In this document: piece by piece, positions 77 through 26,648 of the stretch
How positions within the stretch are numbered: the first letter of the stretch is position 1
How the letters are laid out: each line of letters begins with the position of its first letter
Assembly (NCBI RefSeq): GCF_004025585.1
Contig: NZ_QTZO01000013.1
Span: 1-64,000 of the forward strand
Direction of reading: 5' to 3'
DNA: 64,000 nt
Source: Pseudodesulfovibrio sp. S3
Lineage (GTDB): Bacteria; Desulfobacterota; Desulfovibrionia; Desulfovibrionales; Desulfovibrionaceae
Position numbers and translations under genes: made by a program
The notes under the pieces: model-generated
The model's database searches: none
Seen by the model: only the letters and a program-made list of their open reading frames with translations
Told to the model about the DNA's origin: nothing

Positions 77-454
77 ATGATGAAAATACGTTTGTTGCTG
101 GTTGATGATGAAACCGACTTTCTCACCGCCTATTCGCGCAGATTCGAGCGCAGAAATGCCGAAATAACCATCGCTTCAAGCGGTCAGGAGGCCATTGACA
201 AAATTCGGGACGCCGAGTTCGACGTGGTCATTCTCGACGTCATGATGCCCGAGATGAACGGCATCGAGACCTTGAGGCGCATCAAGGCCATAGCCCCCGA
301 CCTTCCGGTCATCATCCTGACAGGACACGCCGATTCCAAGACGCTCATCCAGGGCATGGACTTCGGCGCCTTCGACTTCATGCTCAAGCCGGTGGGTACC
401 GACGAATTGTATTTCAAGGTGCTGGATGCCGTCAGATCCAGGCAGCGGAGCTAG
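77..454 (+). CDS. Single-domain response regulator (receiver only)
   Basis: A 125-residue CheY-like receiver. The acidic pair D10-D11, phospho-acceptor D54 (ILDVMMPEMNG), T82 (LTGH) and K104 (MLKP) are all present. There is no room for an output domain, so it probably passes phosphate to or from another protein. The start at 77 is chosen because gaggaga lies six bases upstream; an in-frame ATG at 14 falls inside the inverted repeat and has no such site. It is the first visible gene of a seven-gene operon and precedes the PEP-synthase-like gene by 22 bases. Confidence 0.9.
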   Translation: MMKIRLLLVDDETDFLTAYSRRFERRNAEITIASSGQEAIDKIRDAEFDVVILDVMMPEMNGIETLRRIKAIAPDLPVIILTGHADSKTLIQGMDFGAFDFMLKPVGTDELYFKVLDAVRSRQRS

Positions 455-476
455 GCCCAACTGTCGGAGGTGTGCC

Positions 477-3062
477 GTGAAGAATACGCTCAAGACTCTT
501 TTCAATTTCATTCACAGAAATCCTGACGAAAAGGATGAAACGGCAGAACTGTTCCTGGCAAAATCGGAGAACTTCCGGCTGCTGCTGTCGGCCAACAACG
601 AAGCACTTGAACTCATGGCCGAAATGACCGGCGAGGCGCAGTCCGACCAGGTGTTCGGCATATCCCACGTCAGGGCGCAAAGCCTCAAGGTGGCGTCGGG
701 CGTGCGCCAGATGATCGAACGCCTCTGCCTCATGGCTCCCGGAAAATATGAAGCGCTCAGGAATGTTTTCAACAATGTTGTCCAGTCCATGGACGAAGCT
801 TTCGAATCCCGTTCGGCCCGGCCGCTCGGTCCTGTTGTGCTTGAAATGAAGGAAGTCCGGGCCGAATCCCTGCCCGAAACAGGGTCGAAGGTGGCCCTGC
901 TCGGAGAGATTCGTGCCAGGCTCGGCGTGGATGTCCCCCACGGGTTTTCCATCACGGTTTCGGCTTTCCGCATGTTCATGGAAAGCACCGGGCTTGATGA
1001 TGAGATCAGCCGACTCATTCAGATCCATGACGGCAGCAATCTGGAACAGCTCTACAGCCTTGAAAAGGCTGTTCGCAACGCCATTGATCTCGCCCAGATC
1101 CCGGTTGAGATTGAAAAGGCCGTCCAGGCCCAGTGCGCGCGATTCGGAAATATCCGGTTTGCCGTGCGCAGCAGTGCCCTGGATGAAGATTCCGAACAAG
1201 CCGGTTTCGCGGGACAGTTCAAGTCTGTGCTGGGTGTGCGTCCGGCCAACCTGATGGAAGCGTATCGTGCTGTCCTGGCCAGCATGTACTCGGCCACGGC
1301 CATGACCTATATCCGCAATCGCGGTCTTCGTGAGGACGACATGATAATGGCTGTGGGGTGCATGGAAATGATCGACGCCAGGGCTGGAGGCGTGGTCTAC
1401 ACCCGGTCCCCCATGGGGGATGACGATACCGTCGTCGTCAATGCCGTATGCGGTTTGCCCTGTGCGGTCGTGGACGGTAGTTCGGAGGTGGATTCATGGA
1501 TCATCGACCGGACCACCCAGGCCATTGTTCGCAGGGATACAGCCGAAAAGGAAGTTTGCTTCGTGCTGGCCTCCGGCGGCAAGGTTCGCAAGGAGCGCCT
1601 TTACGGGGATTTGGCCGTTGCCCCTTCCATCACCGACGCCGATGCGCTTCGGCTGGCGGCCATGGCGATGCGTATCGAAGATCATTTTTCACATCCGCAG
1701 GACATCGAATGGGCGCAGGCACGGGACGGGAAGATAGTCATTCTCCAGAGCCGTCCCCTGACGGTGAGTTCCGGAGCGCCGGAAACAGTCTCGGACGAAG
1801 ACGAGAGCAGGCATTTGGCGCTGTTGTCTGGTTGCACTCCAGCCAGTCCCGGTGCCGCGTTCGGCTATGTGGTCAAAGTGGAGACCAAGGAGGACATGTT
1901 CGGGTTTCCCGATGGAGCAGTCCTGCTGGCCAGGAACGCCCGTCCGCAGTTGTCGGCCCTGTTGCCGAAGGCCGCGGCTCTGGTCACGGAGTTCGGCAGT
2001 CCCGTGGGACATCTGGCGAATGTCGCCCGGGAATACGGCGTTCCCGCCCTGATCGGTGCGCCGGGTGCAATCGAACGGCTTTCCGGGGTCGGCCTGGTCA
2101 CGGTCAACGGTTCCACGGGAACGGTGTATCTCGGTCACCGCCAGAAGCAGATCGACCGGTCGTCCAGACCGGCACCCAAGCCGAGGGTCTCTGATGTGGG
2201 CATGGCCTTGAAAAATGTGCTCGCCTTCATAACCCCCCTGAACCTGACCGACCCGGAATCGCCCGATTTCAGGCCAGAGAGTTGCCGATCCCTGCACGAT
2301 ATCACCCGGTATTGTCATGAAAAGGCCGTGGCCGAGATGTTCACCAAGGGCAGTCGGCCCGTTTCGAGCGCGCGCAGGCTGACCGGTGAGAAGGCCATGC
2401 AATACTGGCTGGTGGACCTTGGCGGCGGCACGGCTGAATCTGCCGAGAGCAAAAGCATCAGCATCGAGGATGTCCGTTCCAACGCCATGAAGGCGTTGTG
2501 GTTCGGCATGATGGCTGTTCCCTGGGAAGGACCGCCGCCCGTCTGCATTGACGGTTTCATGTCCGTGCTCAGCAGCGCGGCTCGGAATCCGGCCCTTGCG
2601 CCGGGAGCCATGAACGACATGGGAGAACGCAACTACTTCATTGTGGGCAGAAACTACTGCAATCTCCAGTCCCGGTTCGGTTTTCATTTCTGTACCATAG
2701 AAGGGTTTGCCGGAGACGACTCGAACGCGAACTATGCCCTGTTCCAATTCAAGGGCGGCGGAGCCGACATGGGGCGCCGTCATTCCAGGGCGCAGCTTGT
2801 GGAGGAGGTGCTGGAGCGGCACGGTTTCATCGTAGAAATCAAGGAAGACGCCCTGTTTGCCCGACTTGAAGGGGTGTCCAGGGAGGCCGTCGAAGAGGCC
2901 ATGGCCATTCTGGGCTATCTGCTCATGCACACGCGCCAGATCGACATGTCCATGGCGGATTCGCAGGCATGTGCCCGGTACAGGAACAAGTTTGAAAATG
3001 ACATCGGCACAGTCCTTTCGACCCTGCCCACTGAACACGGGGCCGCGAGGTACGTGTCATGA
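477..3062 (+). CDS. PEP/pyruvate-binding (PEP synthase-like) phosphotransfer protein without PEP barrel
   Basis: An 861-residue protein with the N-terminal ATP-grasp domain of PEP synthase and pyruvate phosphate dikinase (FAVRSSALDED near residue 230, GGVVYTRSP near 300). A phosphohistidine swivelling domain follows, with the candidate catalytic His at about residue 512 in GSPVGHLANVARE. Canonical enzymes continue into a PEP-binding TIM barrel; here the last 270 or so residues (582-861) are a different domain I do not recognise. Net PEP synthesis is therefore doubtful. Its place between a receiver and a kinase, with an ATGA overlap into the kinase gene, suggests signalling. The GTG start at 477 follows ggagg by six bases; an upstream ATG at 426 would overlap the receiver gene and lacks a ribosome binding site. 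Confidence 0.75.
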   Translation: MKNTLKTLFNFIHRNPDEKDETAELFLAKSENFRLLLSANNEALELMAEMTGEAQSDQVFGISHVRAQSLKVASGVRQMIERLCLMAPGKYEALRNVFNNVVQSMDEAFESRSARPLGPVVLEMKEVRAESLPETGSKVALLGEIRARLGVDVPHGFSITVSAFRMFMESTGLDDEISRLIQIHDGSNLEQLYSLEKAVRNAIDLAQIPVEIEKAVQAQCARFGNIRFAVRSSALDEDSEQAGFAGQFKSVLGVRPANLMEAYRAVLASMYSATAMTYIRNRGLREDDMIMAVGCMEMIDARAGGVVYTRSPMGDDDTVVVNAVCGLPCAVVDGSSEVDSWIIDRTTQAIVRRDTAEKEVCFVLASGGKVRKERLYGDLAVAPSITDADALRLAAMAMRIEDHFSHPQDIEWAQARDGKIVILQSRPLTVSSGAPETVSDEDESRHLALLSGCTPASPGAAFGYVVKVETKEDMFGFPDGAVLLARNARPQLSALLPKAAALVTEFGSPVGHLANVAREYGVPALIGAPGAIERLSGVGLVTVNGSTGTVYLGHRQKQIDRSSRPAPKPRVSDVGMALKNVLAFITPLNLTDPESPDFRPESCRSLHDITRYCHEKAVAEMFTKGSRPVSSARRLTGEKAMQYWLVDLGGGTAESAESKSISIEDVRSNAMKALWFGMMAVPWEGPPPVCIDGFMSVLSSAARNPALAPGAMNDMGERNYFIVGRNYCNLQSRFGFHFCTIEGFAGDDSNANYALFQFKGGGADMGRRHSRAQLVEEVLERHGFIVEIKEDALFARLEGVSREAVEEAMAILGYLLMHTRQIDMSMADSQACARYRNKFENDIGTVLSTLPTEHGAARYVS

Positions 3063-4735
3063 TGAGTACATCCTATACCAGGCTCAAGTGGAATCTCGTC
3101 CTGATCATCCTGGGCCTTTCCCTCGTCCCTCTGTTCGCGCTGGGCTATGTCATCCATGCCGAATTCAAGCAGACCTATGAGGAAAAACTGACCAGCAATC
3201 TGAAGCTCATGGTGAGCAATAGGCGGGATGCCATAGACATGTTCCTCAATGAGCGGGTGGTGCAGCTCCGCATGCTGGCGGACATGCATTCCTTTGCGGA
3301 AATGACCGATCAGGCCTACCTCGACGCGGTATTCGAAGTCATTCACGAAACATCGCGTTCCTTCATTGATGTAGGCGTCATCGGTCATGATGGCCGCCAT
3401 GAGGCGTACAGCGGTCCGTTCGACCTCAAGGAGGTCAATTACAAGGACGAATCCTGGTTCCATCAGGTCATGCTCAAGGGGCTGTATATCAGCGACGTGT
3501 TCATGGGATTCCGCAATTTCCCGCATTTCATCATTGCCGTGAAGCGGCAGGAAGCCGGCAAGACATGGATACTCCGGGCCACCATCGATTCCGACGTCTT
3601 TATCTCGCTTGTCAGAAATGTCCGTACCGGAAAATACGGTGACGCATATATCGTCAACGACAAAAACCAGTTGCAAACGCCGTCCCGGTTCGGAGGGAAG
3701 GTGCTGTCAAAGGCATCCATCCCGGACCACAAGGGCGGCAGGGATATCGAGATACTGGAATGGTCTGACGGTAGCTCGACCTTTCTGGCCGGGACGACCC
3801 CGCTGGCCAACACTGACTGGCGTCTGGTCATTCTGGAAAATCCGGAGGAAGGGCTGTCTCCCCTGATGCGGACCAAATCCCTGATATACACCCTGCTCGG
3901 GGTGTGCGCGTTGGTGATCTTCTTAGGCGCGTACGTCACGGTCAGTTCGGTGGTGGCAAAGCTCAAGGCATCGGATCGTGAACGGGCGGCCATGGATGCG
4001 GCGGTCATGCAGTCCAGCAAGATGGCTTCCCTGGGGAAGCTGGCGGCCGGGGTGGCCCATGAGGTCAACAATCCGCTTTCCATCATCCGGGAAAGCGCAG
4101 GTTGGATACGGGACATTCTCAACGACGGCGAGCTGGGAGAAAGCAAGGCCGTGGACGAGCTCCAGGAAGCGCTTGCCGACATCGACAGGCACGTGGAGCG
4201 GGCTCGCAAGGTCACGCACAGGATGCTCGGCTTTGCCCGGCGCATGGAACCGCTGAACGAGGACGTGGACCTGAATATGCTGGCCAATCAGACGGTGGCT
4301 TTCCTGGAAAATGAAACCCGGCATCGGAATATCCAGGTGGATTGCCGTCTGGATCAGGAACTGCCGCTCATCACCACCGATTCCAACCAGGTGCAGCAGG
4401 TCATTCTCAATCTGCTGGAGAACGCCATAGACGCCATCGGCGAGAACGGCGCCATCACGGTCACCACCCGCGTGGAGGGGGATATGGTCGCCATGGATAT
4501 CGCCGACAGCGGCGAGGGTATTTCCAGGGAGAACCTTTCCAAGGTCTTCGACCCCTTTTTCACGACAAAACCAACAGGCGAGGGGACCGGCCTGGGCCTG
4601 TCCATAGTCTACAGCACCCTGAGCAAGATCGGCGGCACCATCAACGTGCACAGTGAGCAGGGTCTCGGCACCACGTTCACTGTCAGGCTGCCGTTCGCCT
4701 GTCCTCATTTCCCCGGTTGCAAGGAGGAAGCATGA
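3059..4735 (+). CDS. Membrane histidine kinase with periplasmic Cache-like sensor
   Basis: A 558-residue sensor kinase. Transmembrane segments lie at about residues 12-32 and 275-300, enclosing a periplasmic domain of about 240 residues with a dCACHE-like pattern, often a ligand sensor for small organic molecules. HisKA follows with H334 in GVAHEVNNP. The HATPase part shows N-box (NLLENAIDA), DSGEGI, FFTTKP and GTGLGLS motifs. There is no HAMP or PAS. Its ATG overlaps the stop of the PEP-synthase-like gene (ATGA), and its own stop overlaps the next receiver's start, so the three are translationally coupled. Confidence 0.92.
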   Translation: MMSTSYTRLKWNLVLIILGLSLVPLFALGYVIHAEFKQTYEEKLTSNLKLMVSNRRDAIDMFLNERVVQLRMLADMHSFAEMTDQAYLDAVFEVIHETSRSFIDVGVIGHDGRHEAYSGPFDLKEVNYKDESWFHQVMLKGLYISDVFMGFRNFPHFIIAVKRQEAGKTWILRATIDSDVFISLVRNVRTGKYGDAYIVNDKNQLQTPSRFGGKVLSKASIPDHKGGRDIEILEWSDGSSTFLAGTTPLANTDWRLVILENPEEGLSPLMRTKSLIYTLLGVCALVIFLGAYVTVSSVVAKLKASDRERAAMDAAVMQSSKMASLGKLAAGVAHEVNNPLSIIRESAGWIRDILNDGELGESKAVDELQEALADIDRHVERARKVTHRMLGFARRMEPLNEDVDLNMLANQTVAFLENETRHRNIQVDCRLDQELPLITTDSNQVQQVILNLLENAIDAIGENGAITVTTRVEGDMVAMDIADSGEGISRENLSKVFDPFFTTKPTGEGTGLGLSIVYSTLSKIGGTINVHSEQGLGTTFTVRLPFACPHFPGCKEEA

Positions 4736-5130
4736 CCAGAATCAGAATACTCGTAGTGGACGACGAACCCGATTTCCTGAAGCTGATCGAGCGGCGCCTG
4801 ACAAAACGCAATGTGGATGTGGACACTGTCGGCACCGGCGAGGAGGCTCTGTTGTTCTTGAAAAACACCCCGGTCGACGTGGTGGTCCTGGACGTGCGCA
4901 TGCCGGGCATGAACGGCATCGAGACGCTGAAGGAGATCCGCAAGCGGTTCCGGGAGGTGGAGGTCATCCTGCTTACGGGGCACGGCTCCATGCAGTCGGG
5001 CGTCGAAGGCATCAGCCAGGGGGCTTATGACTATATCCTCAAGCCGTTTTCCATCGACAACCTGCTTGAGCGCATCCGTGCTGCCCATGAGCACGCCCGG
5101 CTCCGAAGACAGCGGCGGGAGAACGCATGA
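4732..5130 (+). CDS. Single-domain response regulator
   Basis: A 132-residue receiver with D10/D11, acceptor D54 (VLDVRMPGMNG), T82 (LTGHG) and K104 (ILKPF). It has no output domain beyond a short charged tail. It resembles the first receiver of the operon closely enough to suggest duplication. The start at 4732 (MTRIRIL) is chosen for aaggagg just upstream and the ATGA overlap with the kinase before it; it also overlaps the kinase after it by four bases. It is the likely partner of one or both flanking kinases. Confidence 0.92.
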   Translation: MTRIRILVVDDEPDFLKLIERRLTKRNVDVDTVGTGEEALLFLKNTPVDVVVLDVRMPGMNGIETLKEIRKRFREVEVILLTGHGSMQSGVEGISQGAYDYILKPFSIDNLLERIRAAHEHARLRRQRRENA

Positions 5131-6044
5131 GCCTGACTCGGGCCAGAGATATCGTCCGGGTGGGACAATATGCCTACCCGGCGTCCTGCCTGGCCATTGC
5201 GGCACTTGTCTGGCAACGGCAATTCAGCGGGAGCACGGTTGTCTTGTCCATTGCCACCGTGTTGACGGTTGTCATGTGGATGCTGCTCAGGACGTCCGCC
5301 CGTTGGCTCAAGGATGCCTCGGTCGAGCAGTCCGAACTTGGGGACCAGCTCATTCAGTCCCAACGCGTACTGGCACTCGGCGAGCTCTCCACCGGCATAG
5401 CCCATGAGATAAACAACCCCCTGAACATCATCATGCAGGAAGCGGAGCTCATGCGGTTCAACCTCGCTTCAAACCCGTCTCCCCAAGAAATGGAGGAAAT
5501 CCGGGGGAGCCTCGACGTCATCTACGCGCAGGTGATGCGCTGCTCCGACATCACCCACAAGCTGCTGGATTTCGCCCGTCACAGAAAGACCGTATCCCAG
5601 CTTGCCGACATCAATCGTCTGGTGGAGGACATGTTGGAGCTGGTCGAGCGCGAAACCAGTCCGAAGAACATCCGGATAATCCGTTTGTTCGACGACCGGT
5701 TGCCCATGGTCAAGACCGATCCCCCGCTCTTGCGGCAGGTCTTTCTCAATCTTCTCATCAATGCGGTGCAGGCCGTGCAAGCCGATGGCGACATCCTCAT
5801 TACCACGTATTGTTCGGGTGAAATGGCCTGTACGGAAATACGGGATACCGGTCCGGGCATCCCGGCAGAATTGCGCGAACGGATATTCAACCCCTTTTTC
5901 ACGACCAAATCACCGGGCGAAGGCACGGGCCTCGGACTGTCCGTCAGCCTGAGGATCGTCAACGAACTCGGGGGGAACATCTCGGTGAACTCCCGACCCG
6001 GAGAGGGGGCGGCATTCACGGTGTGTATCCCGGTCAAATCATAA
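5127..6044 (+). CDS. Short membrane-anchored histidine kinase
   Basis: A 305-residue kinase. Two hydrophobic stretches in the first 55 residues form a membrane hairpin with almost no periplasmic loop, followed directly by HisKA (H93 in GIAHEINNPLN) and HATPase (NLLINAVQA, DTGPGI, FFTTKSPGEGTGLGLS). With no Cache, PAS, GAF or HAMP domain it may sense through its membrane segment or a partner. The kinase core resembles that of the preceding kinase, which suggests duplication of the kinase/receiver pair. Coupled to the receiver gene upstream by ATGA. Confidence 0.9.
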   Translation: MSLTRARDIVRVGQYAYPASCLAIAALVWQRQFSGSTVVLSIATVLTVVMWMLLRTSARWLKDASVEQSELGDQLIQSQRVLALGELSTGIAHEINNPLNIIMQEAELMRFNLASNPSPQEMEEIRGSLDVIYAQVMRCSDITHKLLDFARHRKTVSQLADINRLVEDMLELVERETSPKNIRIIRLFDDRLPMVKTDPPLLRQVFLNLLINAVQAVQADGDILITTYCSGEMACTEIRDTGPGIPAELRERIFNPFFTTKSPGEGTGLGLSVSLRIVNELGGNISVNSRPGEGAAFTVCIPVKS

Positions 6045-6054
6045 TGAGGTGCTT

Positions 6055-6483
6055 ATGACAATCAAGGCAAGAATCCTTGTGGTCGACGACGAAGAGCGGT
6101 TCAGAAAATCCGTAGCCCAGCTCCTGAGAAAGGAGAATTATTATGTGGACGAGGCCCAGGACGGGCATGAGGCCATCAATATGCTCGTCACCAGGGACTA
6201 TGATGTGGTATTGCTCGACATGAAAATGCCCGGCATGTCCGGCGCGGAAACCTTTAGCGAAATACGGCTGCAGGGTTTTGACGTGGAAACCATTTGTCTG
6301 ACGGGACATACCTCCATCGGCGATGCCATGGATCTCCTGCAGAACGGGGTGTTCGACTACCTGCTCAAGCCCGCGTCCATGCCGGAAATCATACAGACGG
6401 TCCAGCGGGCCACGGAAAGGAAGCTTCTCAGACACGGGCAGATAAGCATGTCGGAACTCATTGACGGATCAGCCGTTCGTTGA
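6055..6483 (+). CDS. Single-domain response regulator
   Basis: A 142-residue receiver: D11/D12, acceptor D55 (LLDMKMPGMSG), T83 (LTGHT) and K105 (LLKPAS). It has a C-terminal extension of about 30 residues with no recognisable output domain. The ATG at 6055 lies five bases after gagg; a GTG at 6049 overlaps that site and is less likely. It lies ten bases after the preceding kinase and about 30 bases before the last kinase of the operon. Confidence 0.92.
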   Translation: MTIKARILVVDDEERFRKSVAQLLRKENYYVDEAQDGHEAINMLVTRDYDVVLLDMKMPGMSGAETFSEIRLQGFDVETICLTGHTSIGDAMDLLQNGVFDYLLKPASMPEIIQTVQRATERKLLRHGQISMSELIDGSAVR

Positions 6484-6514
6484 TTCAAACCGCTAGTCAC
6501 CTCGGAGACTTGTC

Positions 6515-8041
6515 ATGAATGATTTTACCCATGAGAATATGGGAATCTGCTACTGGAACGGTTCATTGGGGCCGTTCAATGTGGGGGTCGTGGGGACAGG
6601 GGCGACCCTGAAGGTCCTGATTGATCTTATCTACAACGAAGCCTTCAGGGAATTCCTGCCTGAAATGCGTTTGACCGCCATAAGCAACGCGGACCAGGGC
6701 GATGCTCCGAACCTCTACGAGACGACCTGTCCGGTCTATGTGTCATTTGAGGCCATGCTCGCGGCCCATCCCGAGATCAACCTGGTCGTTGAAATTACGG
6801 GAGACAAGTCCATCCGGTCGAGGCTCCGCCAGTCTCTCCCGGATTCCATCGCCCTGATGGATCATCGCGAGATCGTGTTCCTGTGCGGACTGCATGATAT
6901 GGCCGTGGTCAAGGGCAACTACATGGTTCAGATGGACCATCAGCGCACGCTGATCCAATCCATCATCGATGAAATCAGGGAAGACATCTTTTTGCTCGAC
7001 AAGAAGGGGATCATTCAGGATCTGAACCGGACTGTATGGCAGCGGGCCGGGGTTCCCCGCAAGGAACTTCTGGGCAAGCCGTGCTGGGTCGCCGCCCGCC
7101 TGAGAGACGGCTCCGATTTTTGCAATCAGCTTGATCCCCAGTGCCCTTTTCACAAGACCCTGCAGAGCGGACAGAAGGAAGAGACCCTGATCACGCGGGT
7201 CAACGGGAGCGGCCTTTTGCAGTATTATCGGCTCTATGCCTATCCCATTTACGACATGCGAGGGAATATGTCGCATATCATGGTCATGCACAGAGACATC
7301 ACGGAGAGGACCCAACGCGAGAAGTACCAGCAGCAACGGGATAAGTTCGCCATTATCGGCGAGATGTCCACCTACCTGGCACATGAGATCCGCAACCCGC
7401 TTTACGCCGTGGGCGGCTTTGCCAACGCCCTTTTGCGGTCAACCAGTCTCGGCGAGCAGGAAAGGGAGAAGGTGCAGATCATCGTGGATGAGACAAAGCG
7501 ATTGGATCGCCTGCTCACCAGCATGCTCAGCTTTGCCCGTCCGTCGAGTGTCCCGGAAGGCACTGTTGATGTCGTGGCCGTGTGCCGGGATGTGGCTGAA
7601 CTGATGCTCGCGGGCTACGGCAAGCACGGGTATCAAATCGAAGTCAGGACGACCCCGCCCTTGCCTTCGGTGCAGGGGGATACCGATTCACTCAAGCAGT
7701 GCCTCGTCAATACCGTCAAGAACAGCATCGAGGCCATGGCTGACGGCGGTCTGATCCTGATTGAAATTGGCATGGGCGACAACGAGGTGGTTATACGGAT
7801 CATCGACACGGGATCGGGCATGGACGAGCACCAGATGGACCGGGCGTTCAACCCGTTCTATTCTACCAAGGACGGGGGTAGCGGACTCGGTTTGCCCATG
7901 ATCAAGAAGATCATAGAGGAGTGCGGCGGCAGCGTCTCCCTGGCCAGCAAGCCCGGCAAGGGAACCACTGTCACCATTCGGTTGCAGCCCGCGCTTGACT
8001 CCGAGGCGTCGGTCCAGGTCGAACCTGCGGAACAGCAGTAG
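6515..8041 (+). CDS. Soluble histidine kinase with Rossmann-like N-terminus and cysteine-rich PAS
   Basis: A 508-residue kinase with no transmembrane segment. The first 140 or so residues look like a nucleotide-binding Rossmann domain of the kind found in dehydrogenases: NVGVVGTGAT (GxxGxG pattern), then alternating beta/alpha stretches and VVEITGDKSIRSRL. A PAS domain follows (about 150-265) with three cysteines in GKPCW, DFCNQ and QCPF. HisKA carries H290 (YLAHEIRNPLYA), then HATPase (DTGSGMD, GSGLGLPM). The Rossmann call is by eye; a redox or dinucleotide signal is an inference. It closes the operon and is followed by a terminator. Confidence 0.85.
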   Translation: MNDFTHENMGICYWNGSLGPFNVGVVGTGATLKVLIDLIYNEAFREFLPEMRLTAISNADQGDAPNLYETTCPVYVSFEAMLAAHPEINLVVEITGDKSIRSRLRQSLPDSIALMDHREIVFLCGLHDMAVVKGNYMVQMDHQRTLIQSIIDEIREDIFLLDKKGIIQDLNRTVWQRAGVPRKELLGKPCWVAARLRDGSDFCNQLDPQCPFHKTLQSGQKEETLITRVNGSGLLQYYRLYAYPIYDMRGNMSHIMVMHRDITERTQREKYQQQRDKFAIIGEMSTYLAHEIRNPLYAVGGFANALLRSTSLGEQEREKVQIIVDETKRLDRLLTSMLSFARPSSVPEGTVDVVAVCRDVAELMLAGYGKHGYQIEVRTTPPLPSVQGDTDSLKQCLVNTVKNSIEAMADGGLILIEIGMGDNEVVIRIIDTGSGMDEHQMDRAFNPFYSTKDGGSGLGLPMIKKIIEECGGSVSLASKPGKGTTVTIRLQPALDSEASVQVEPAEQQ

Positions 8042-15383: not shown

Positions 15384-15459
15384 TGGTGCTCGGGGACGGA
15401 ATTGAACCGCCGACACGGGGATTTTCAGTCCCCTGCTCTACCGACTGAGCTACCCGAGC
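15384..15459 (-). tRNA. tRNA-Phe (GAA), left copy
   Basis: A complete 76-base tRNA with an encoded CCA end. The acceptor arms gctcggg/cccgagc pair exactly; the anticodon stem-loop reads ggggactgaaaatcccc, giving anticodon GAA. The T-arm contains ggttcaattcc. It is identical over its whole length to the copy at 26649-26724 and marks the left boundary of the genomic island. Confidence 0.97.
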
Positions 15460-15508
15460 AACCGGTTGAGAAGTGGGGTTTACCCAAATGGGGGACGGTT
15501 TGCAACCT
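15384..15508. repeat. Left copy of 125-bp direct repeat (tRNA-Phe plus 5' flank)
   Basis: This segment matches 26649-26773 in the same orientation with three mismatches, all in the 49 bases upstream of the tRNA. Identity stops sharply at both sides. The repeat covers the complete tRNA and its promoter region rather than just the 3' end usually duplicated by integrases, which leaves open whether it is an integration duplication or an older tandem tRNA duplication. Confidence 0.9.
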
Positions 15509-15608
15509 GCTTGAATGGTTGTTTATATCGGCCGTCAGAATGTCCCTGCGGATAAGCATAGGGGTTGGAAACAACCCGAGTGAATTCATGGCGCAGACCA
15601 GAGAAAAA

Positions 15609-15637
15609 GCGTCGTGAGTTTACCCTATGTTTACCCG
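15609..15637. repeat. Left inner direct repeat with paired GTTTACCC motifs
   Basis: Contains tttaccctatgtttaccc within a 21-bp exact match to 26577-26597; about 28 bp match with two mismatches. GTTTACCC occurs at 15618-15625 and 15629-15636, eleven bases apart, that is one helical turn. A third copy is at 15478-15485 near the tRNA. Candidate integrase arm sites or attachment core. Confidence 0.75.
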
Positions 15638-15645
15638 GAGGATCG

Positions 15646-16800
15646 ATGGCGATCACGATCAAATGCCCGAACTGTTCATCGACGTACAAACTCGGCACCA
15701 AGTCTTGCCGCAAGTGCAAGACCAACCTCCAGCAACACCGGAAATACAAGGTCATGATCAAGGTGCGGGGCCGATGGAAGACGAAGACCGTCGACTCCCT
15801 GAAGCTGGCCGAACAGATCGAAGCGAAGTGGAGGCACGATATCACTGTCGCAGCCGTGGTGCCGGAGAAGATGCCGGTGCCGACCTTGCAGGAGGTCTGG
15901 GACAGGTTCGACAGGCTGCATAACTCAAAGCTGAAGTCGCCGCGATCATGGCGCAAGGTCTGGGAAACCCGTGTCCGAAAACGGTTCGGGCAAATGCGGC
16001 TGGATGAGATCACGCCGCCGGACATAGCCGAGTTCATGTGCTCCATGAAGAGCATGCAAAGGACCAAGGGGACTCGGAAACCACTGGCGATGGAGACGGT
16101 CACCAAGAACGTGAAACTCATCAGCAGGTTGTACAGCTACGCAGCCAAGAACGGACTCTACGAGGGCACTAACCCGGCGACACGCCTCGACATGCCCCGA
16201 TACGACAACCAAGTGACCAACCCCCTCACCGATGCCGAGCTAGACCGCCTCATGGCCGTTCTGGGCACATGGAAGAACCGCATGGTCGCCCTTGCCTTCC
16301 AGTTCTGCCTCGCGACAGGGAAAAGGACGGGCGAGGTCTTCAGCCTCACGTGGCCGGATGTGGACTACGAGGGAGACGTCATCCGGTTCGAGATCAAGAG
16401 CATGGTTAAGGGACGGTGCCAGTACCTACCCATGAACGACATGATGAAGAGCATCCTTGCCGAGGCCCGAGCCGAACGACAGGCGCGGTCGAATTTGGTC
16501 TTCCATTCGACCAACGGCAATCGCATCCACTACCGCTGGCCGTGGACCCGTATCAAGGCCGCAGCCAATCTTCGCGCAGAAATTCGCCCCCACGACCTGC
16601 GGCACACGTTTGCATCAAGGCTTGTCAGTACCGGCAAGGTCGATCTCTACACGCTTCAGCACATCCTTGGTCACAAGACCGTGAGCATGACCCAGCGGTA
16701 TGCCCATCTTGCCGATGAGTCGGTCAGGAGAGGGATGGCGGCGGCGGAGAGTGTGTTTTCAGGCAGTTGCCGGGTACCCCCGAATCGAGAAGGTTCTTGA
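15646..16800 (+). CDS. Tyrosine recombinase / integrase
   Basis: A 384-residue phage-type integrase. The N-terminus carries a small zinc ribbon (CPNC near residues 7-10 and CRKC near 21-24), followed by a SAM-like core-binding domain (about 70-170) and the catalytic domain with Arg near 227 (GKRTGEV), HDLRHTFAS near 316-324, LGHKT near 340-345 and the nucleophile Tyr near 351 (QRYAHL). The ATG follows cggagga. The reading frame stays open upstream through the inner repeat, but that part is unlikely to be translated. It presumably mobilises the island. Confidence 0.95.
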   Translation: MAITIKCPNCSSTYKLGTKSCRKCKTNLQQHRKYKVMIKVRGRWKTKTVDSLKLAEQIEAKWRHDITVAAVVPEKMPVPTLQEVWDRFDRLHNSKLKSPRSWRKVWETRVRKRFGQMRLDEITPPDIAEFMCSMKSMQRTKGTRKPLAMETVTKNVKLISRLYSYAAKNGLYEGTNPATRLDMPRYDNQVTNPLTDAELDRLMAVLGTWKNRMVALAFQFCLATGKRTGEVFSLTWPDVDYEGDVIRFEIKSMVKGRCQYLPMNDMMKSILAEARAERQARSNLVFHSTNGNRIHYRWPWTRIKAAANLRAEIRPHDLRHTFASRLVSTGKVDLYTLQHILGHKTVSMTQRYAHLADESVRRGMAAAESVFSGSCRVPPNREGS

Positions 16801-16848
16801 GCGACTGCATCCCTTCTGCTAGAGTCTGGAGAAATTCAAGAAATCACC

Positions 16849-17931
16849 ATGAAGCACAAACTGATCGACCTTTTCTCCGGCTGCGGAGGTATGACCTTAG
16901 GGTTCGTTCATCCCGATTACTGCGGGAGGTTCGAGTCCGTCTTTGCGTTGGACAACGATCAGGCGGCCGTCAACAGCTATATCGCCAACTTCGGCAGCCA
17001 TGCCGTGTGCGACGACATCGAGAATTGGGCGTCGGGCGGGCTGGTCGGACAAGTCCCCGAAGCCGACATTGTCATCGGTGGGCCTCCCTGTCAGGGGTTC
17101 AGCCTGCTCAACAAGAAGCGCAAAGGGGATCACCGCCGAGCCTTGTGGGAGCCGTACATGGACATCGTTGCCATGTCCGGTGCGCGAGTCTTCGTCATCG
17201 AGAACGTGCAGGGACTGCTCAAGGCGGACGAGAAGAAGGAAATTGTTAAGAGAGCCGAAAAGCTCGGGTTTAAGACGACCTCGGCTCTTCTCAATGCGGC
17301 CGACTACGGAGCACCCCAGACCCGGAAGAGGGCATTCATCGTGGGCTGGAAGATGTCGGCATTCGACGTCGTGTCCTTTCCACCGAAGCCGACGCACTCC
17401 TTGGACCCGGAAAGGACGGGGTTGCCTCGGTGGCGTACCGTTGCCGATATGATCTCCGATCTTCCGCCACCGGAGGGGTTCGAGATCAGGGATGTCCCGG
17501 CACCGCTCAATCTTCATTTTCGCCGGAACCCGACGGCCAAGAGTCTGCAGCGGTACAGAGCCGTTCCGCCGGGGGGCAATCGGTTCGATTTGCAACGCAA
17601 TGCGCCGGAGATCACTCCTCAGTGTTGGATCAGGAAGGTTTCGGGCGGTACAGACTTGTTCGGCCGTTTGTGGTGGGATCGTCCGTCAGTGACTATTCGG
17701 ACGGAGTTCTTCAAGCCGGAAAAGGGTCGGTATCTACACCCGGAGCAGCATCGTCCCATCACCCACCGAGAAGCTGCTCGGCTCATGGGTTTCCCCGATC
17801 ACTTTGTCTTCACGGGCACGAAGACCGAAGTAGCCCGTCAGATCGGCAATGCCGTTCCCCCGGATATGGCCGCCGCCGTGGCGAGGGCCATTGCCGACGT
17901 GCTCGCCATGAGGGCCAGAAAGGCCGCCTAG
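16849..17931 (+). CDS. DNA (cytosine-5) methyltransferase
   Basis: A 360-residue m5C methyltransferase with motif I (DLFSGCGGMTLGF), motif IV with the catalytic Cys81 (GGPPCQGFS), motif VI (IENV), motif VIII (QTRKRAF) and motif X (QIGNAVPPDMA). The target-recognition region lies roughly between residues 200 and 285. Its stop codon overlaps that of the HNH nuclease gene encoded on the other strand, and Vsr follows, so it is read as the protective half of a restriction-modification cluster. The recognition sequence cannot be read from the protein. Confidence 0.95.
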   Translation: MKHKLIDLFSGCGGMTLGFVHPDYCGRFESVFALDNDQAAVNSYIANFGSHAVCDDIENWASGGLVGQVPEADIVIGGPPCQGFSLLNKKRKGDHRRALWEPYMDIVAMSGARVFVIENVQGLLKADEKKEIVKRAEKLGFKTTSALLNAADYGAPQTRKRAFIVGWKMSAFDVVSFPPKPTHSLDPERTGLPRWRTVADMISDLPPPEGFEIRDVPAPLNLHFRRNPTAKSLQRYRAVPPGGNRFDLQRNAPEITPQCWIRKVSGGTDLFGRLWWDRPSVTIRTEFFKPEKGRYLHPEQHRPITHREAARLMGFPDHFVFTGTKTEVARQIGNAVPPDMAAAVARAIADVLAMRARKAA

Positions 17932-18869
17932 TCCTTTTCGCCCTTGCTGTGCCGCTTGTCGTGGCAGATGTTGCAGAGGGTGGTCAGATTCTCCACCGTG
18001 TTCTCGCCGCCGTCAGCATGATGCTTCATGTGGTGCGCTTCAAGATGCCTCGGGTCGGAAGGGTTCCATAGGTCGTGATTCCAGCCGCAGTCTTGGCATG
18101 TGTGACCGTCTCGCATGTACACTTCACGGCGAACCGCATCCTTGATGACCCGGTCATGCTCAGGTGCCTGTCGGTCCTCGACCAGCACATACATGCTCAC
18201 TGGGAGATCGGGCATGCCGGTGTTCTGGGTCATGATGGGCCAGCCGTATTCGGTACGTAGCTCGCGGGTTCGTCGTGCCCACTCACTTCTGTTGTCGGCT
18301 ACGTACCGAAGCTCCTCACCGGAGACTTCCTTGCCGACGTTGCTGCGGAAGAATTTGAGAATTTTGTCTCGGACGGACAAGTCCTTTTCCTTGCGAATCT
18401 CGTTGGCCACATTCCAGCGATAGGCTGCATCGCGGTCCTGTTCGTCGGAGAGGAGCAGATAGTCATCCGGCTTCATGGCGTCGAGTTCCTCCCCGAAGCC
18501 GTTCTCCTCGTCGTCCTTCATGTCCTTGACCGTGTATCCGGTGATGACCTTCCAGCCGTGTTCGACACGGAGTTCCCGGATGCGACGGGCGTATTCGCTG
18601 ATGCCGCCGATGACCATGAGTTCCTCCCCGTCGATGACCACGCCGACATACTTGAGCAGGTAGCGGAGTATGCGGTCCCGTGCCGCCTTTGCCGTCTCGT
18701 CGCGCAGAAGGGAACTACCGAGGTCGCGAAGGAGATGATTGGCCGGGATGAGTTCGCGTACCTGTTGCCTGAGGCTGCTGCTCTTGAGATGGTTCTCGAA
18801 ATCATTCAAGAGCTCAACCAATGCAGAGCGTAGGGATTCGGGGTTGCCGATGCAGGATCGTCTTGCCAT
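17928..18869 (-). CDS. HNH endonuclease, probable restriction enzyme
   Basis: A 313-residue protein ending in an HNH domain: CQDCG, then HLEAHH, then LCNICHDKRH, with two CxxC pairs as zinc ligands. The N-terminal part holds two copies of a module of about 55 residues (around 66-118 and 167-222), each with a GEEL and an RIRELR/RTRELR EHGW/EYGW core, probably duplicated DNA-binding units. The gene is tail-to-tail with the methyltransferase (stops overlap) and starts ten bases after vsr. Restriction partner is the most likely role. Confidence 0.85.
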   Translation of the reverse strand: MARRSCIGNPESLRSALVELLNDFENHLKSSSLRQQVRELIPANHLLRDLGSSLLRDETAKAARDRILRYLLKYVGVVIDGEELMVIGGISEYARRIRELRVEHGWKVITGYTVKDMKDDEENGFGEELDAMKPDDYLLLSDEQDRDAAYRWNVANEIRKEKDLSVRDKILKFFRSNVGKEVSGEELRYVADNRSEWARRTRELRTEYGWPIMTQNTGMPDLPVSMYVLVEDRQAPEHDRVIKDAVRREVYMRDGHTCQDCGWNHDLWNPSDPRHLEAHHMKHHADGGENTVENLTTLCNICHDKRHSKGEKD

Positions 18870-18879
18870 GAGTGCTGCC

Positions 18880-19290
18880 TTATCGAGGTAGGAAGGCCGT
18901 CAGCCTGTCCGTCAGTTCGTCGAGGTTCTTGGTTTCGCATTCCCAGATCACAAGACACCTGTACCCAAGGTCTTGAAGTTGTTCAATGGCCTTGGCATCG
19001 CGGGAGACATTACCCTTTAGCTTTTTCTCCCAGAATTCGACGTTGGTTTTGGGCATGGTCGCTCTTTTGCATCCCGGATGCAGATGCCAGAAACAGCCGT
19101 GGACGAAGATCACCGACTTCCTGCGGGGAAGGACAATATCGGGTGTGCCGGGAAGGTCTTTGCGATGCAGACGGAAGCGGTAGCCGAGGGCGTGAAGGAG
19201 CTTGCGGACTTGGATTTCTGGTTTGGTATCCTTCGAAACAATCGAACTCATAATTGACGAGCGTTTCGTTTTCACAAATGTATCCACCAA
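18880..19290 (-). CDS. vsr: Very short patch repair endonuclease Vsr
   Basis: A 136-residue Vsr-family nuclease: MSSIVSKDTKPE, LRxxLHALGYRFRLH, GTPDIVLP (catalytic Asp), VFVHGCFWH-like VIFVHGCFWHLH and the CKRATMPKTN loop. Vsr nicks next to T:G mismatches made when 5-methylcytosine deaminates, so it repairs damage caused by the neighbouring methyltransferase. It is co-transcribed with the HNH nuclease gene downstream. Confidence 0.95.
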   Translation of the reverse strand: MVDTFVKTKRSSIMSSIVSKDTKPEIQVRKLLHALGYRFRLHRKDLPGTPDIVLPRRKSVIFVHGCFWHLHPGCKRATMPKTNVEFWEKKLKGNVSRDAKAIEQLQDLGYRCLVIWECETKNLDELTDRLTAFLPR

Positions 19291-19330
19291 GATTGATTAA
19301 TCCCCTTCCGGCTTCGTAACCATTAAAAAC

Positions 19331-19358
19331 AAAAAAGCCACAGTATATACTGTGGCTT
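19331..19358 (-). terminator. Terminator downstream of the deaminase / small-ORF unit
   Basis: An 11-bp perfect stem (19335-19345 with 19348-19358). On the minus strand it is followed by ttttttgttttt, a strong T-run. It ends the transcript carrying the small ORF and the deaminase. Confidence 0.9.
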
Positions 19359-19381
19359 AAATAATCTCTGTGAGCCTGTTG

Positions 19382-19594
19382 TCAAAAACACAACTCATAA
19401 GCCTCATCGGCTAGCTCTTTTAGAGTTTTTTCCTTTTTGGCTTTTTGTTCAGATTTTGATTGCTCACTTACATATGTGCAAAAACTAATAATCTTTGAAT
19501 GAGTTGCAACCTTTGCTTCTTCAACATGCTCTACCCTAGTATCCGTAAACGGTAGCTCAAGCTGCTTAGCAACTATCCGCGTTTTGCGACTCAT
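19382..19594 (-). CDS. Small protein downstream of the deaminase, unknown
   Basis: A 70-residue lysine- and glutamate-rich protein with no signal peptide or transmembrane segment. It has a plausible ribosome binding site (aagggag eight bases before the ATG). It lies 85 bases after the deaminase stop, on the same strand, before a strong terminator, and shares the deaminase's AT-rich codon use, so the two probably moved together. It might be an accessory or regulator of the deaminase; nothing in the sequence shows which. In Vibrio cholerae the known regulator of the homologous enzyme is an RNA, not a protein. Confidence 0.6.
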   Translation of the reverse strand: MSRKTRIVAKQLELPFTDTRVEHVEEAKVATHSKIISFCTYVSEQSKSEQKAKKEKTLKELADEAYELCF

Positions 19595-19679
19595 CCTCTA
19601 AACTCCCTTAAATTGTCCACAGTTTCTAGACGTCCCTTGGACATATAAAATCTAGTGAAAAAACTAACCCAAATCAAGC

Positions 19680-21293
19680 TTATTTTTTTGCCGCCATTTG
19701 CTCCCCATGATAGGTGGCCACCACTTTTTCAAAGTCGAGTGAGTTAAATAAGAATTTCTGAAGTACAGGTTTTGCCACACTAAGATCGACATCGATTCTC
19801 TTGCCGTTTTTCTTTCGGTTCCCAATTTCGAACATATTTACAAATTGTTTCGGGGCGACGCCTTCAAAGGGAATGATACGCAGCTTCGAAATATCTTGTA
19901 GTTTGTCTGAAGCATCGATTTCTATCGAATCGCTATGCAGATCAAAGGCCAAACTCTTTTCATAAGGCTCTATGTAATAGACCTTACTAATCCCGGAAGA
20001 TACAATGTGACGAGCGCAGTGGTGGCATGGAAAAGTAGTACAATATAAAGACCCGCCTCTAAGTGAGACTGTAGACATCCGAGCTGCTGTAGTGATTGCA
20101 TCCATTTCAGCATGGACAGCTCTGGAAAACTCTATGAGTCCCTCAAGCTGCGGGATGTCAGCAGCCTTTTTGCGAAGCATCTCGACTATGCCATCGACAT
20201 CCATATTCTCTTTTTTTAAAAGCTCAACAAGGCCATCCACCTTTTTACAAACTTTCATCAACTCGCTTTTAAAAACCCCTTCAATCTCTCCAATTATCTC
20301 ATTTTTTTTGTCATTACTTTGGCACGTGCCGTTTGCTTTCATTACACAACGGAAATCATCTTCACCATCTTCGGGTCCATACAAACCTCCTCCTCCCCTC
20401 GGGACGTCATTCCTCCCGGTCGAAATCAAGTCGCCCTCAGCGCTCAATATAGCTGCACCCACCTGCCTCGACATACAGCCTGATCGCAATGAAGCTGAAT
20501 GTGCAGCATTCATAGCGTATTCATCCAGTGTAGGCGTTATGTCCCTCTTTCCGAGCATTAGGTTCAGATACCGATCAATAGGATTGTCCAGTGCGCCAGC
20601 GTTTCCTTTAGCGTTCCTGATGAAGAAATCTGCGTGTTGAATTGTTTTTACAAGCTTTTGTCCATACTTTAGGCCTTCATTCTTATCCCTCTGAGTAAGA
20701 ATTACAGCATCTTCCTTGCCAAACCCATCTTCATTTACAAGTCGATTTGTCCTAATTTGCTCGGGACACAACACGCCTACCATATAAAACATGTTGCCAT
20801 ACACTGCCTTCAAAAGTTCGTACTCGGCAGGATGCTTCAAGCTATCGATGAATGTTACGTGGCGTCTGTTGCGTTTATTTTCCTCTTTGGATTCCTTGGT
20901 CTCTTCTCGCCTATCGATGGCAATACTGCTGACGATTTTTTGAGCTAGAACATCCGTCCCGTATTCATCTCGAAGTTCATTCCCTAAGTCCTGAAGTGTC
21001 TCGATTTTCTTGGCCTTAGCCATGCTGCCGAGATTCTCAATCCTTTTATCTTCAGGGAAAGAGTCAACGATCAGTGTGCTGACCTTTATATATTTTGTGT
21101 CGTACTTTTTCCCCGCGAGATTGGCTTCAAACCTTTTCGCGACTACGGATGTCCCACTTCCCAATGCTCCGCAAAAAGCTATAATCAACTCGTCAGTCTG
21201 CCTACTATTGATGAGCTCCATCAACGAGCCTGCTTTACTGCTGAGTTTTTCGCCCTTTCTAGCTTGGTCAACCATCTTCTTTGCTTCGGACAT
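19680..21293 (-). CDS. DcdV/AvcD-type anti-phage nucleotide deaminase
   Basis: A 537-residue two-domain protein. The N-terminus is a P-loop kinase-like domain (FCGALGSGTSVV, near residues 40-51). The C-terminal half is a deoxycytidylate-deaminase domain with the zinc motifs VHAEMDA and PCHHC (about 390-430) and an internal cysteine-bearing insertion. This arrangement is that of DcdV/AvcD enzymes, which deaminate dC nucleotides during infection and starve phage replication. The ATG at 21293 is chosen because ggag lies six bases upstream; ATGs at 21305 and 21323 are alternatives. The gene is much AT-richer than its neighbours, a sign of separate acquisition. Confidence 0.9.
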   Translation of the reverse strand: MSEAKKMVDQARKGEKLSSKAGSLMELINSRQTDELIIAFCGALGSGTSVVAKRFEANLAGKKYDTKYIKVSTLIVDSFPEDKRIENLGSMAKAKKIETLQDLGNELRDEYGTDVLAQKIVSSIAIDRREETKESKEENKRNRRHVTFIDSLKHPAEYELLKAVYGNMFYMVGVLCPEQIRTNRLVNEDGFGKEDAVILTQRDKNEGLKYGQKLVKTIQHADFFIRNAKGNAGALDNPIDRYLNLMLGKRDITPTLDEYAMNAAHSASLRSGCMSRQVGAAILSAEGDLISTGRNDVPRGGGGLYGPEDGEDDFRCVMKANGTCQSNDKKNEIIGEIEGVFKSELMKVCKKVDGLVELLKKENMDVDGIVEMLRKKAADIPQLEGLIEFSRAVHAEMDAITTAARMSTVSLRGGSLYCTTFPCHHCARHIVSSGISKVYYIEPYEKSLAFDLHSDSIEIDASDKLQDISKLRIIPFEGVAPKQFVNMFEIGNRKKNGKRIDVDLSVAKPVLQKFLFNSLDFEKVVATYHGEQMAAKK

Positions 21294-21396
21294 AGGAATC
21301 TCCATATGGTTTGAAACCTCCATACTTCACATCTTATACAAATAAAAGCTTTGAAAGACTGTTCTGAGATCAAAAACGGAATTTCCTGTGTGGCCG

Positions 21397-21425
21397 CATG
21401 GGTATACCCATGTGTCTAGTAGACA
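21397..21425. promoter_or_regulatory. Palindromes upstream of serine recombinase (candidate recombination or operator site)
   Basis: A 16-bp perfect palindrome (21397-21412, catgggtatacccatg) is followed at once by a 13-base odd palindrome (21413-21425, tgtctagtagaca). Each half of the second fits the TGTCYNNTA consensus of Tn3-family resolvase sites. They lie about 90 bases before the recombinase start, in the gap shared with the divergent deaminase gene, so they could be a res-like site, an operator, or both. Confidence 0.55.
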
Positions 21426-21513
21426 TGTCGTGGACAAGAGGGTTGACATCTGGATTTATGTCCATGTAGAGTGGCAACGTCTTAGAATAAAATGTCCACA
21501 CAGGGAGTCACTC

Positions 21514-22080
21514 ATGATCATCGCCTACGCCCGAGTCAGCACTACCGACCAAGACGCATCCATGCAGGTCGCCGCCATCCGCAAGGAGTACCCGGAAGCC
21601 CTCATCCATGAAGAGCAGGCAAGCGCGACGAGTCGGGATGGCAGACCGAGGCTAGAGATGATCATCCAGACCCTCCGTGAAGGCGACTCGCTGGTCGTGT
21701 GGAAACTGGATCGACTGGCCCGCAACGTCCTCGACCTGCTTCAGATCGTCGAGGAGTTGGAGACGAAAGGGGCTGGTCTCGTGATCCTCGATCAGAAGAT
21801 CGACACCAGCACGGCAGCGGGGAAGTGCTTCTTGCAGATGCTGGGAGTGTTCGCCGAGTTCGAGACCAACCTCCGCAGGGAGCGGCAGATGGCCGGGATC
21901 GCCAAGGCGAAGTCCGAAGGCAAGTACCGAGGCCGTCCGGCCACTCTCAACAAGGACAAGATCAGCGGGATGCTGGCAGATGGGATGAGCCATGCCGCCA
22001 TCGCCAAGAAGCTCGGCATCAGCACCAAGAGTGTCCAGCGGGTACGGCGGGAGATTGAAGAAAAGTCAACCGTCGATTAG
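21514..22080 (+). CDS. Serine recombinase (resolvase/invertase family)
   Basis: A 188-residue small serine recombinase. The nucleophile Ser is in YARVSTTDQ; the catalytic domain continues with KLDRLARNVLDLL and FAEFETNLRRERQ; a C-terminal helix-turn-helix (AAIAKKLGISTKSVQRV) binds DNA. Length and layout match Tn3 resolvases and Hin-type invertases. The ATG follows agggag. It lies divergent from the deaminase and could resolve, invert or simply regulate part of the island. Confidence 0.95.
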   Translation: MIIAYARVSTTDQDASMQVAAIRKEYPEALIHEEQASATSRDGRPRLEMIIQTLREGDSLVVWKLDRLARNVLDLLQIVEELETKGAGLVILDQKIDTSTAAGKCFLQMLGVFAEFETNLRRERQMAGIAKAKSEGKYRGRPATLNKDKISGMLADGMSHAAIAKKLGISTKSVQRVRREIEEKSTVD

Positions 22081-22083
22081 TAC

Positions 22084-22854
22084 TCAATGCTCATTCTGGG
22101 GACATCTCGCCAATCTTGGCGAAGTCTCAATCACTGATAACGACTCGATCAGCATTCGCATGTTACCATTCCCGCCAAAATGGATGGTTGTGCAGGGGAA
22201 ATGCTGCGGCATCACGCCGTGCAGGTATGCACCCATGAGGCGGAGCCAGTGGTCACGGTCGATCAGCGGCTGGCGGGTAGGCGTCCGCATGCCCGCGTCG
22301 CCGGTGAAACCGAGATAGAGAAGAGCGACGGGCAGACCGCAATCGGCGAGCTTCCATGCCGTGGCGATGCGGTTAGAGAGTTGGTAGTGAGTGTCTCGGC
22401 TGATGGAGAAGCCGGGGAGGATCTGATTCAGCGCTGAGTTGGCTTCTTCGATACACTGCCCGATGATATGGTGATTCTCCTTGGACTGGTCGCTGGCCTT
22501 GGGTGACAGCGGCTTGCCGTTCCAGTCGAGTTCCTGATCGTTGGCCTTGGCCTCCACGAGGAGCAGGCCGGGAGTGCCGTCAATGGTGCAGGTGGACAGG
22601 ATGTCCCACTGCGGGTTGCGGTATCGGTCCGGCACCCACCATGCGTCGAATCGAGCGAAGTCGAATCGATCCTTGCAGTGCTCGGCGCAAAATCGACGTA
22701 CGGTCCACTCTTCGCTGTCGGCGTACCCCTGCGGTCGCTGCGTATCGCCCTCAACCACGTGTACCCCATGCTCTCCAAGTATGTTGGACATTACGACAGC
22801 GAACCTGCCGGAATCGAGCAGGTCGAGGACGTGTTTGAGGCTTCCGCGCGGCAT
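22084..22854 (-). CDS. Unknown protein with possible PD-(D/E)XK nuclease core
   Basis: A 256-residue soluble protein I cannot assign. Residues in the first third read QWDILS, then about ten residues later LLLVEAKAND: an Asp followed by a beta strand ending in E-x-K, the pattern of PD-(D/E)XK nucleases. The rest has no recognised motif. It begins five bases after the stop of the beta-propeller lipoprotein gene and has no ribosome binding site of its own, so its translation is probably coupled. It converges on the serine recombinase (three bases apart). A nuclease or restriction role is a hypothesis. Confidence 0.6.
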   Translation of the reverse strand: MPRGSLKHVLDLLDSGRFAVVMSNILGEHGVHVVEGDTQRPQGYADSEEWTVRRFCAEHCKDRFDFARFDAWWVPDRYRNPQWDILSTCTIDGTPGLLLVEAKANDQELDWNGKPLSPKASDQSKENHHIIGQCIEEANSALNQILPGFSISRDTHYQLSNRIATAWKLADCGLPVALLYLGFTGDAGMRTPTRQPLIDRDHWLRLMGAYLHGVMPQHFPCTTIHFGGNGNMRMLIESLSVIETSPRLARCPQNEH

Positions 22855-22859
22855 CGGGG

Positions 22860-24110: not shown

Positions 24111-24186
24111 TTACAGTTCCTCGCTTCAGCTTCGATATGAGTTTGGTTGGTTCAGTTTTCGTTCGAATACAGAGGATCGGTTCGTG

Positions 24187-24761: not shown

Positions 24762-24974
24762 GTGAAAGCCCGTGTTGTTTAACGATGCGGAAAGACGATT
24801 GAAAATCTGCTCAGTTGTTATCCCGGATCGCCATGACAATCAAGGTGTTGCCATTGAGCTGAAACGCGCGCGAGGATGCTGGTTGAACGCAAATGGCAAC
24901 AGTGGTAGCAGCAGTCGTCGACATACAAGTTAAGGTGATACCAATCAGGAACTGGAACAAATAAAGAGGGCACG

Positions 24975-26598: not shown

Positions 26599-26603
26599 CC
26601 CAC

Positions 26604-26639: not shown

Positions 26640-26648
26640 ATTTCCAAG

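Follow-up and report, generated by a model that had tools for sequence, protein, structure and literature searches.

The window analysed here, which takes up the first 64 kb of contig C13 in the genome of Pseudodesulfovibrio sp. S3 (3.68 Mb, 43 contigs), begins with an operon that combines three histidine kinases and three lone receivers with PEPL, a protein related to phosphoenolpyruvate (PEP) synthase. The operon is real, conserved and wider than the window alone shows. There is about an even chance that it provides the signalling side of a module for anion uptake in dissimilatory sulfur metabolism, in which the receivers switch PEPL and the state of PEPL sets the activity of a permease for sulfate or a related oxyanion. 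A more specific form of this proposal is put forward tentatively, as something that may be true and would be new: the two-component system would act through an ATP-driven phosphohistidine swivel protein, which bears a new acceptor domain and gates anion permeases post-translationally.

Seven open reading frames occupy positions 77-8041 of the + strand, in the order REC1, PEPL, HK1, REC2, HK2, REC3 and HK3. Three of the junctions are 4-nt overlaps and the remaining gaps are 22, 10 and 31 nt. REC1 (77-454), directly 5' of PEPL, REC2 (4732-5130) and REC3 (6055-6483, start possibly at 6049) are lone receivers; Response_reg (3.5e-30, 1.2e-32 and 6.7e-30, respectively) is the sole Pfam family above cut-off in each, and the acceptor Asp, the Thr and the Lys are present in all three. 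REC1 is up to 85% identical to the counterpart gene in relatives. HK1 (3059-4735) is a membrane kinase with a dCache_1 sensor, HK2 (5127-6044) has no recognised sensor domain and HK3 (6515-8041) carries a PAS domain (PAS_4, 3.5e-10). Each kinase has HisKA and HATPase_c above the Pfam cut-off, plus related GHKL-type models, and an intact H-box (AHE[VI]xNPL). Such kinases, together with receivers that keep the acceptor Asp, make up a two-component system. Pfam lists no DNA-binding domain for any of the seven products, and in the receivers no second domain, DNA-binding or enzymatic, rises above cut-off; such an output domain is usual, not obligatory. An initial annotation of the window had described the same seven-gene phosphorelay operon; all of its reading frames were confirmed and Pfam agrees with the assignments. 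HK3 is replaced by a methyl-accepting protein in four relatives (L079 by Pfam; L078, L080 and L083 by a profile built from L079). The N-terminus of HK3 (6515-6970) resembles an NAD-binding Rossmann domain, with NAD_binding_3 at 0.017 and GFO_IDH_MocA at 0.033, both below cut-off, and HK3 could be a redox-sensing kinase.

PEPL (477-3062, GTG start, 861 residues) begins at the same residue in its two nearest homologues, L072 and L035. Its N-terminal part (about residues 1-118; 477-830) is modelled as three long helices after the low-confidence residues 1-18; residues 1-120 have no Pfam match, and F33 and L94 are invariant in the family alignment. The ATP-grasp domain follows (PPDK_N, Pfam 2.8e-79; residues 135-442; 879-1802). 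It aligns with that of a solved PEP synthase, and K138, R231, E411, Q424 and R426 are invariant across the family. The phosphohistidine swivel domain (PEP-utilizers, 6.5e-16; residues 477-548; 1905-2120) carries H512 (2010-2012), invariant in 80 of 80 aligned family members. The residues of these two domains that we take to be catalytic are kept in all 80.

The C-terminal domain (residues 562-861; 2160-3059) is undescribed and defines a large protein family. It has ten invariant residues, C603, H607, D608, R611, H614, R733, H737, N752, R771 and D791. Pfam gives no match to it and lists no PEP-binding barrel, and no confident fold match to solved structures was found. The AlphaFold model of the last 300 residues is of mixed secondary structure without an eightfold beta/alpha repeat and is not a beta/alpha barrel. 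The retained histidine and the missing barrel, both read earlier from the sequence of the window, are thus borne out. PEP synthase, pyruvate phosphate dikinase and rifampin phosphotransferase have the ATP-grasp and the swivelling phosphohistidine domain in common with PEPL; PEPL, however, has no PEP barrel and ends in a different C-terminal domain. Two residues before the His, where the aligned PEP synthase has Thr, PEPL has Val, and it scores far below the cut-offs of the PEP synthase families (302.5 of 598 bits for PRK06464.1; 286.6 of 739.75 bits for TIGR01418.1). In Nitrospirota a variant of PEPL with 1061-1087 residues (L210-L213) has about 200 extra C-terminal residues that are conserved and look beta-rich; the L210 gene adjoins a PhnD-like gene.

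Because the window starts where contig C13 starts, the permease half of the module lies outside it. The ten closest orthologous loci (L035, L072-L080) have a conserved gene order, and upstream genes for a DASS permease, a Yip1-like protein and a receiver-CBS protein are found in all of them. Directly 5' of REC1 stand a membrane protein of 180-194 residues, a permease of 616-625 residues, the receiver-CBS gene and a lone receiver. An additional kinase at the far upstream end matches the sensor region of HK1 in nine of the ten; the tenth (L078) is cut by the end of the locus. Pfam identifies Yip1, Na_sulph_symp (1e-47) and Response_reg plus CBS in L075, and the permease is assigned to the sulfate type at this family level only. 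Genes of this kind also end contig C9 (119541 bp) of the source genome: an HK1-like kinase, a 1034-residue gene on the other strand, a receiver, a receiver-CBS gene, a DASS permease (116830-118677; 87% identical to the L075 permease) and a Yip1-like gene, which is followed by 72 bases to the contig end. An identity of 33% over 544 columns between HK1 and the C9 kinase suggests that the two respond to related signals. The initial annotation had recognised no output for the operon. No DNA-binding domain has come to light, but a candidate output, the anion permease, is encoded upstream.

At the contig start, just 5' of REC1, lies a perfect GC-rich hairpin of 28 bp on the + strand (1-63; RNA fold -64.5 kcal/mol, z -12.65). 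Shorter GC-rich hairpins stand between the Yip1-like gene and REC1 in the four relatives that were folded (L035, L074, L075 and L080; z -2.1 to -3.9), and in L074 six of 200 shuffles folded as well as the native sequence. Hairpins of this kind are the likely reason that the assembly broke between C9 and C13; the hairpin of the window is probably the site of that break, and it may owe some of its length to an assembly artefact.

Linkage to signalling genes and to permeases extends across the PEPL family. The 170 PEPL genes counted are not a random sample: closest homologues were taken first and the rest were spread over families (loci up to L196), after rows under 600 residues and repeated C-termini had been dropped. 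Within 6 kb, 146 have a lone receiver, 133 a kinase and 152 one or the other. Neither of the two findings by which the initial annotation would have been refuted, homologues mostly lacking kinases or a normal PEP-binding barrel at the C-terminus, was thus obtained. A TauE-type permease is found at 89, a DASS permease at 31 and either at 112; the DASS, TauE and companion profiles were each built from single sequences, so that absences are soft. Both kinds of neighbour, signalling gene and permease, accompany 102 genes. Only 98 of the 170 have 6 kb on both sides, and among these a lone receiver or kinase is present at 88 and a DASS or TauE permease at 60. In 86 of the 170, PEPL is directly adjoined by a lone receiver on the same strand, less than 300 bp away. 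In the source genome, which has three PEPL genes, 7 of 29 lone receivers (open frames of up to 190 residues) are found within 6 kb of these, with 0.3 expected from the receiver density of that one genome; the clustering is not due to chance. Permease type tracks the PEPL tree, with 43 changes compared to 94.6 in shuffles. The PEPL of the window falls in a clade of 16 rows (support 98), the other 15 of which all have DASS as the nearest permease within 6 kb.

The permeases near PEPL are often accompanied by small proteins that have no Pfam match or belong to the Yip1 or DUF4881 family. DUF4881 (PF16222) proteins follow TauE_b permeases near PEPL genes in L036, L103, L104, L107, L127, L131 and L132, a placement that hints at the role of that family. 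Two other loci of the source genome seem to divide one set of genes. On contig C1 (352500-362500, L197), a TauE_a and T239 permease pair stands with an HK1-like kinase and three receivers, with no PEPL in the 10 kb, and the PEPL locus of contig C5 (L081) has a kinase and three receivers and nothing that matches a permease. Relatives such as L125 have the C1-type permease set and the C5-type PEPL set in one cluster. PEPL may act in trans.

The distribution of the C-terminal domain points to dissimilatory sulfur metabolism. A profile of the domain was searched against 297 genomes drawn evenly from the phylum of the source genome. The domain was found in 107 of them, with up to at least eight matches per genome, and dsrA in 144. 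A dsrA match was present in 102 of the 107 genomes with the domain and in 42 of the 190 without it. The five domain-bearing genomes that had none (G042, G078, G094, G113 and G164) are 62-80% complete, and dsrA is present in all 93 domain-bearing genomes with a completeness of 90% or more and a contamination of 5% or less. In Nitrospirota, the phylum of the L037 genome, the domain occurs in 55 of 198 genomes and dsrA in 87; dsrA accompanies the domain in 49 of the 55 (six have no match) and is found in 38 of the 143 others. The Fisher p values, 3e-38 in the first phylum and 4e-16 in Nitrospirota, overstate independence since the genomes are related. Because a limited number of best candidates was scored per genome (8 for the domain and 6 for dsrA in the first phylum, 12 and 8 in Nitrospirota), absences and copy numbers are inexact. 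The two phyla agree that the domain is nearly restricted to genomes bearing dsrA.

The system is not without precedent, since two kinds of such clusters are in print, and the earlier statement that no system of this form had been described has to be given up; neither report, in its accessible parts, takes up the PEPL family as such. The first is the "nitrate cluster" of Desulfovibrio, DVU0251-DVU0245 and Dde_0597-Dde_0605 (Korte et al. 2014; PMC4001038). Insertions in this cluster confer resistance to 100 mM nitrate, not to nitrite. Transposon mutants in DVU0246 (PPDK/PEP-utilizing), DVU0247 (receiver), DVU0250 and DVU0251 (TauE permease) grew equally with and without 100 mM nitrate. Some results fit this picture less well: mutants in DVU0245 were inhibited, and in the pool the fitness of the DVU0250 mutant was low, although it grew well alone. 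The authors' hypothesis is a leaky thiosulfate transporter, and the accessible part of the report gives phenotypes and this hypothesis with no mechanism for the PPDK/PEP-utilizing protein (PMC4001038).

The nitrate cluster brings together a TauE-type permease, a sensor kinase, a lone receiver and a protein with PPDK_N and PEP-utilizing domains. Read by synteny across the contig break, the window module has the same combination of PEPL, lone receiver, kinase and permease, with DASS replacing TauE. It differs in having three kinases and three receivers and in having neither a PhnD-like protein nor a dual-specificity phosphatase. Around PEPL in the ten closest loci no match to TauE, to the PhnD-like protein or to the phosphatase was found, apart from a TauE match near the end of the L075 locus. 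The source genome has a closer likeness on contig C2 (L082), where TauE, an unknown protein of 205 residues, a PhnD-like protein, a kinase, a receiver, PEPL and a dual-specificity phosphatase match the gene set of the nitrate cluster, and the PEPL encoded there bears the C-terminal domain.

The second precedent, a 2025 study, concerns 26 species in which genes for DASS sulfate transporters cluster with those for two-component systems and CBS proteins (PMC11887813). Its authors propose that cache kinases sense sulfate and that WalR-type response regulators control transporter formation. As far as they are described in the accessible part of the study, those clusters place a DASS permease beside cache-sensor kinases, response regulators and CBS-domain proteins, as in the C9 end and the window, where a DASS permease, a cache-type kinase and a CBS-domain protein are all present when the two are joined by synteny. 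The terms "phosphoenolpyruvate" and "dikinase" do not appear in the main text of that paper, the figures and supplements of which may show PEPL (PMC11887813). The literature searched held no description of the PEPL family, of its C-terminal domain, of the near-restriction to dsrA or of the repeated pairing with anion permeases.

The simplest course of events that would give each conserved part a role is as follows. The kinases, through the dCache sensor of HK1 and that of its upstream relative, would sense an external anion, most simply sulfate, and would phosphorylate the lone receivers. A receiver, most likely REC1, would then bind PEPL and switch the ATP-driven phosphorylation of His512 on or off. 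The swivelling His domain would carry the phosphate to an acceptor in the C-terminal domain or docked on it, perhaps a membrane partner. The state of PEPL would in turn raise or lower the activity of the partner permease, possibly by a direct effect on transport. Here the partner would be the DASS permease, accompanied by the Yip1-like and receiver-CBS proteins, and in the sister modules a TauE-type permease. A similar idea is known from the nitrogen phosphotransferase system (PTS), where a phosphohistidine swivel protein regulates ion transport. EI-Ntr takes phosphate from PEP by way of its barrel and passes it to HPr-like and EIIA proteins; PEPL differs in having an ATP-grasp domain and no barrel.

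Several observations weigh against this reading. The kinase DVU0248 is annotated as a pseudogene in D. vulgaris, and its mutant gained in the pool and had little or no nitrate advantage when grown alone (PMC4001038); the pseudogene and the weak phenotype speak against the kinase being needed there, although the G20 homologue of DVU0248 scored 2.34. Expression, and not permease activity, could underlie the nitrate phenotype, and DVU0246 is identified as a PEPL ortholog by gene order and the domain list in the accessible part of the paper, not by sequence comparison. PEPL was not found fused to a receiver, kinase or permease, so that direct contact of PEPL with these partners is something we infer, and the biochemical steps given to PEPL are likewise predicted from its sequence. 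Members of the DASS family also transport dicarboxylates, which makes sulfate uncertain as the ion. No overlap was found between the ends of C9 and C13, and their junction is deduced from synteny. Within 6 kb, 58 of the 170 PEPL genes have no DASS or TauE permease and 18 have no lone receiver or kinase; six of the 98 with full flanks have none of the four. Genomes with dsrA and no match to the PEPL domain number 42 in the first phylum and 38 in Nitrospirota.

PEPL could instead be an ordinary small-molecule enzyme like rifampin phosphotransferase, in which ATP phosphorylates His512, the C-terminal domain binds a substrate, perhaps a sulfur compound imported by the neighbouring permease, and the kinases and receivers only set the timing. 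This alternative is rather unlikely. With no DNA-binding domain recognised in the seven products, a purely transcriptional route needs a regulator encoded elsewhere. The many domain matches in some genomes and the placing of PEPL genes beside different permease families also tell against it, as does the published nitrate cluster, in which losing the PEPL-type gene has the same effect as losing the permease, going by the phenotypes accessible there (PMC4001038).

The initial annotation had proposed instead that PEPL is a phosphate donor or sink for the receivers, moving phosphate between ATP, His512 and a receiver Asp as a kinase-independent input of energy or pyruvate status. Transfer from phosphohistidine to Asp is normal two-component chemistry. 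The intact His512 and ATP-grasp residues agree with this proposal, as does the lone receiver so often directly beside PEPL, and the annotated kinase pseudogene in the D. vulgaris cluster would fit another donor. It is nevertheless improbable, because most modules already have kinases, the invariant C-terminal domain would be left without a role, and no evidence of a link to pyruvate was seen. It is very improbable that PEPL encodes a gluconeogenic or orphan enzyme and lies in a two-component cluster by chance, as a bystander. The six full-flank copies without any of the expected neighbours could be read in this way; the 152 copies with a lone receiver or kinase nearby, the conserved gene order in relatives, the near-restriction to dsrA in two phyla and the scores far below the PEP synthase cut-offs argue against it.

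If PEPL does link receivers to permeases, the output of this two-component system would be neither DNA binding, nor an enzyme domain borne on the receiver, nor flagellar control. It would be an ATP-powered counterpart of transporter control by the PTS. In the two phyla sampled it would occur almost only where dissimilatory sulfite reductase is found, often with several copies in one genome, each coupled to a permease of its own. The identity of the sulfate transporters of sulfate reducers has been called unresolved, with DASS and TSUP (TauE/CysZ type) among the candidates, and most candidate genes lie far from those of the pathway (PMC5840216). A PEPL gene beside a permease would offer a genomic criterion for picking the sulfate-uptake permeases that matter. 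It would also connect the unexplained nitrate-resistance cluster with a family of which genomes carry several copies, and would single out one protein, with one histidine and one undescribed domain, that is open to testing in a tractable laboratory strain. On the practical side this bears on the control of sulfide formation in souring and corrosion.

Elsewhere in the window, at 15384-26724, two identical tRNA-Phe genes (76 bp and seven further identical bases) flank a stretch of 11 kb in which G+C dips to about 49%. Genes recognised there by eye include a cytosine-C5 DNA methyltransferase (16849-17931), a Vsr-like endonuclease (18880-19290) and a serine resolvase (21388-22080), and the stretch is possibly an integrated island.
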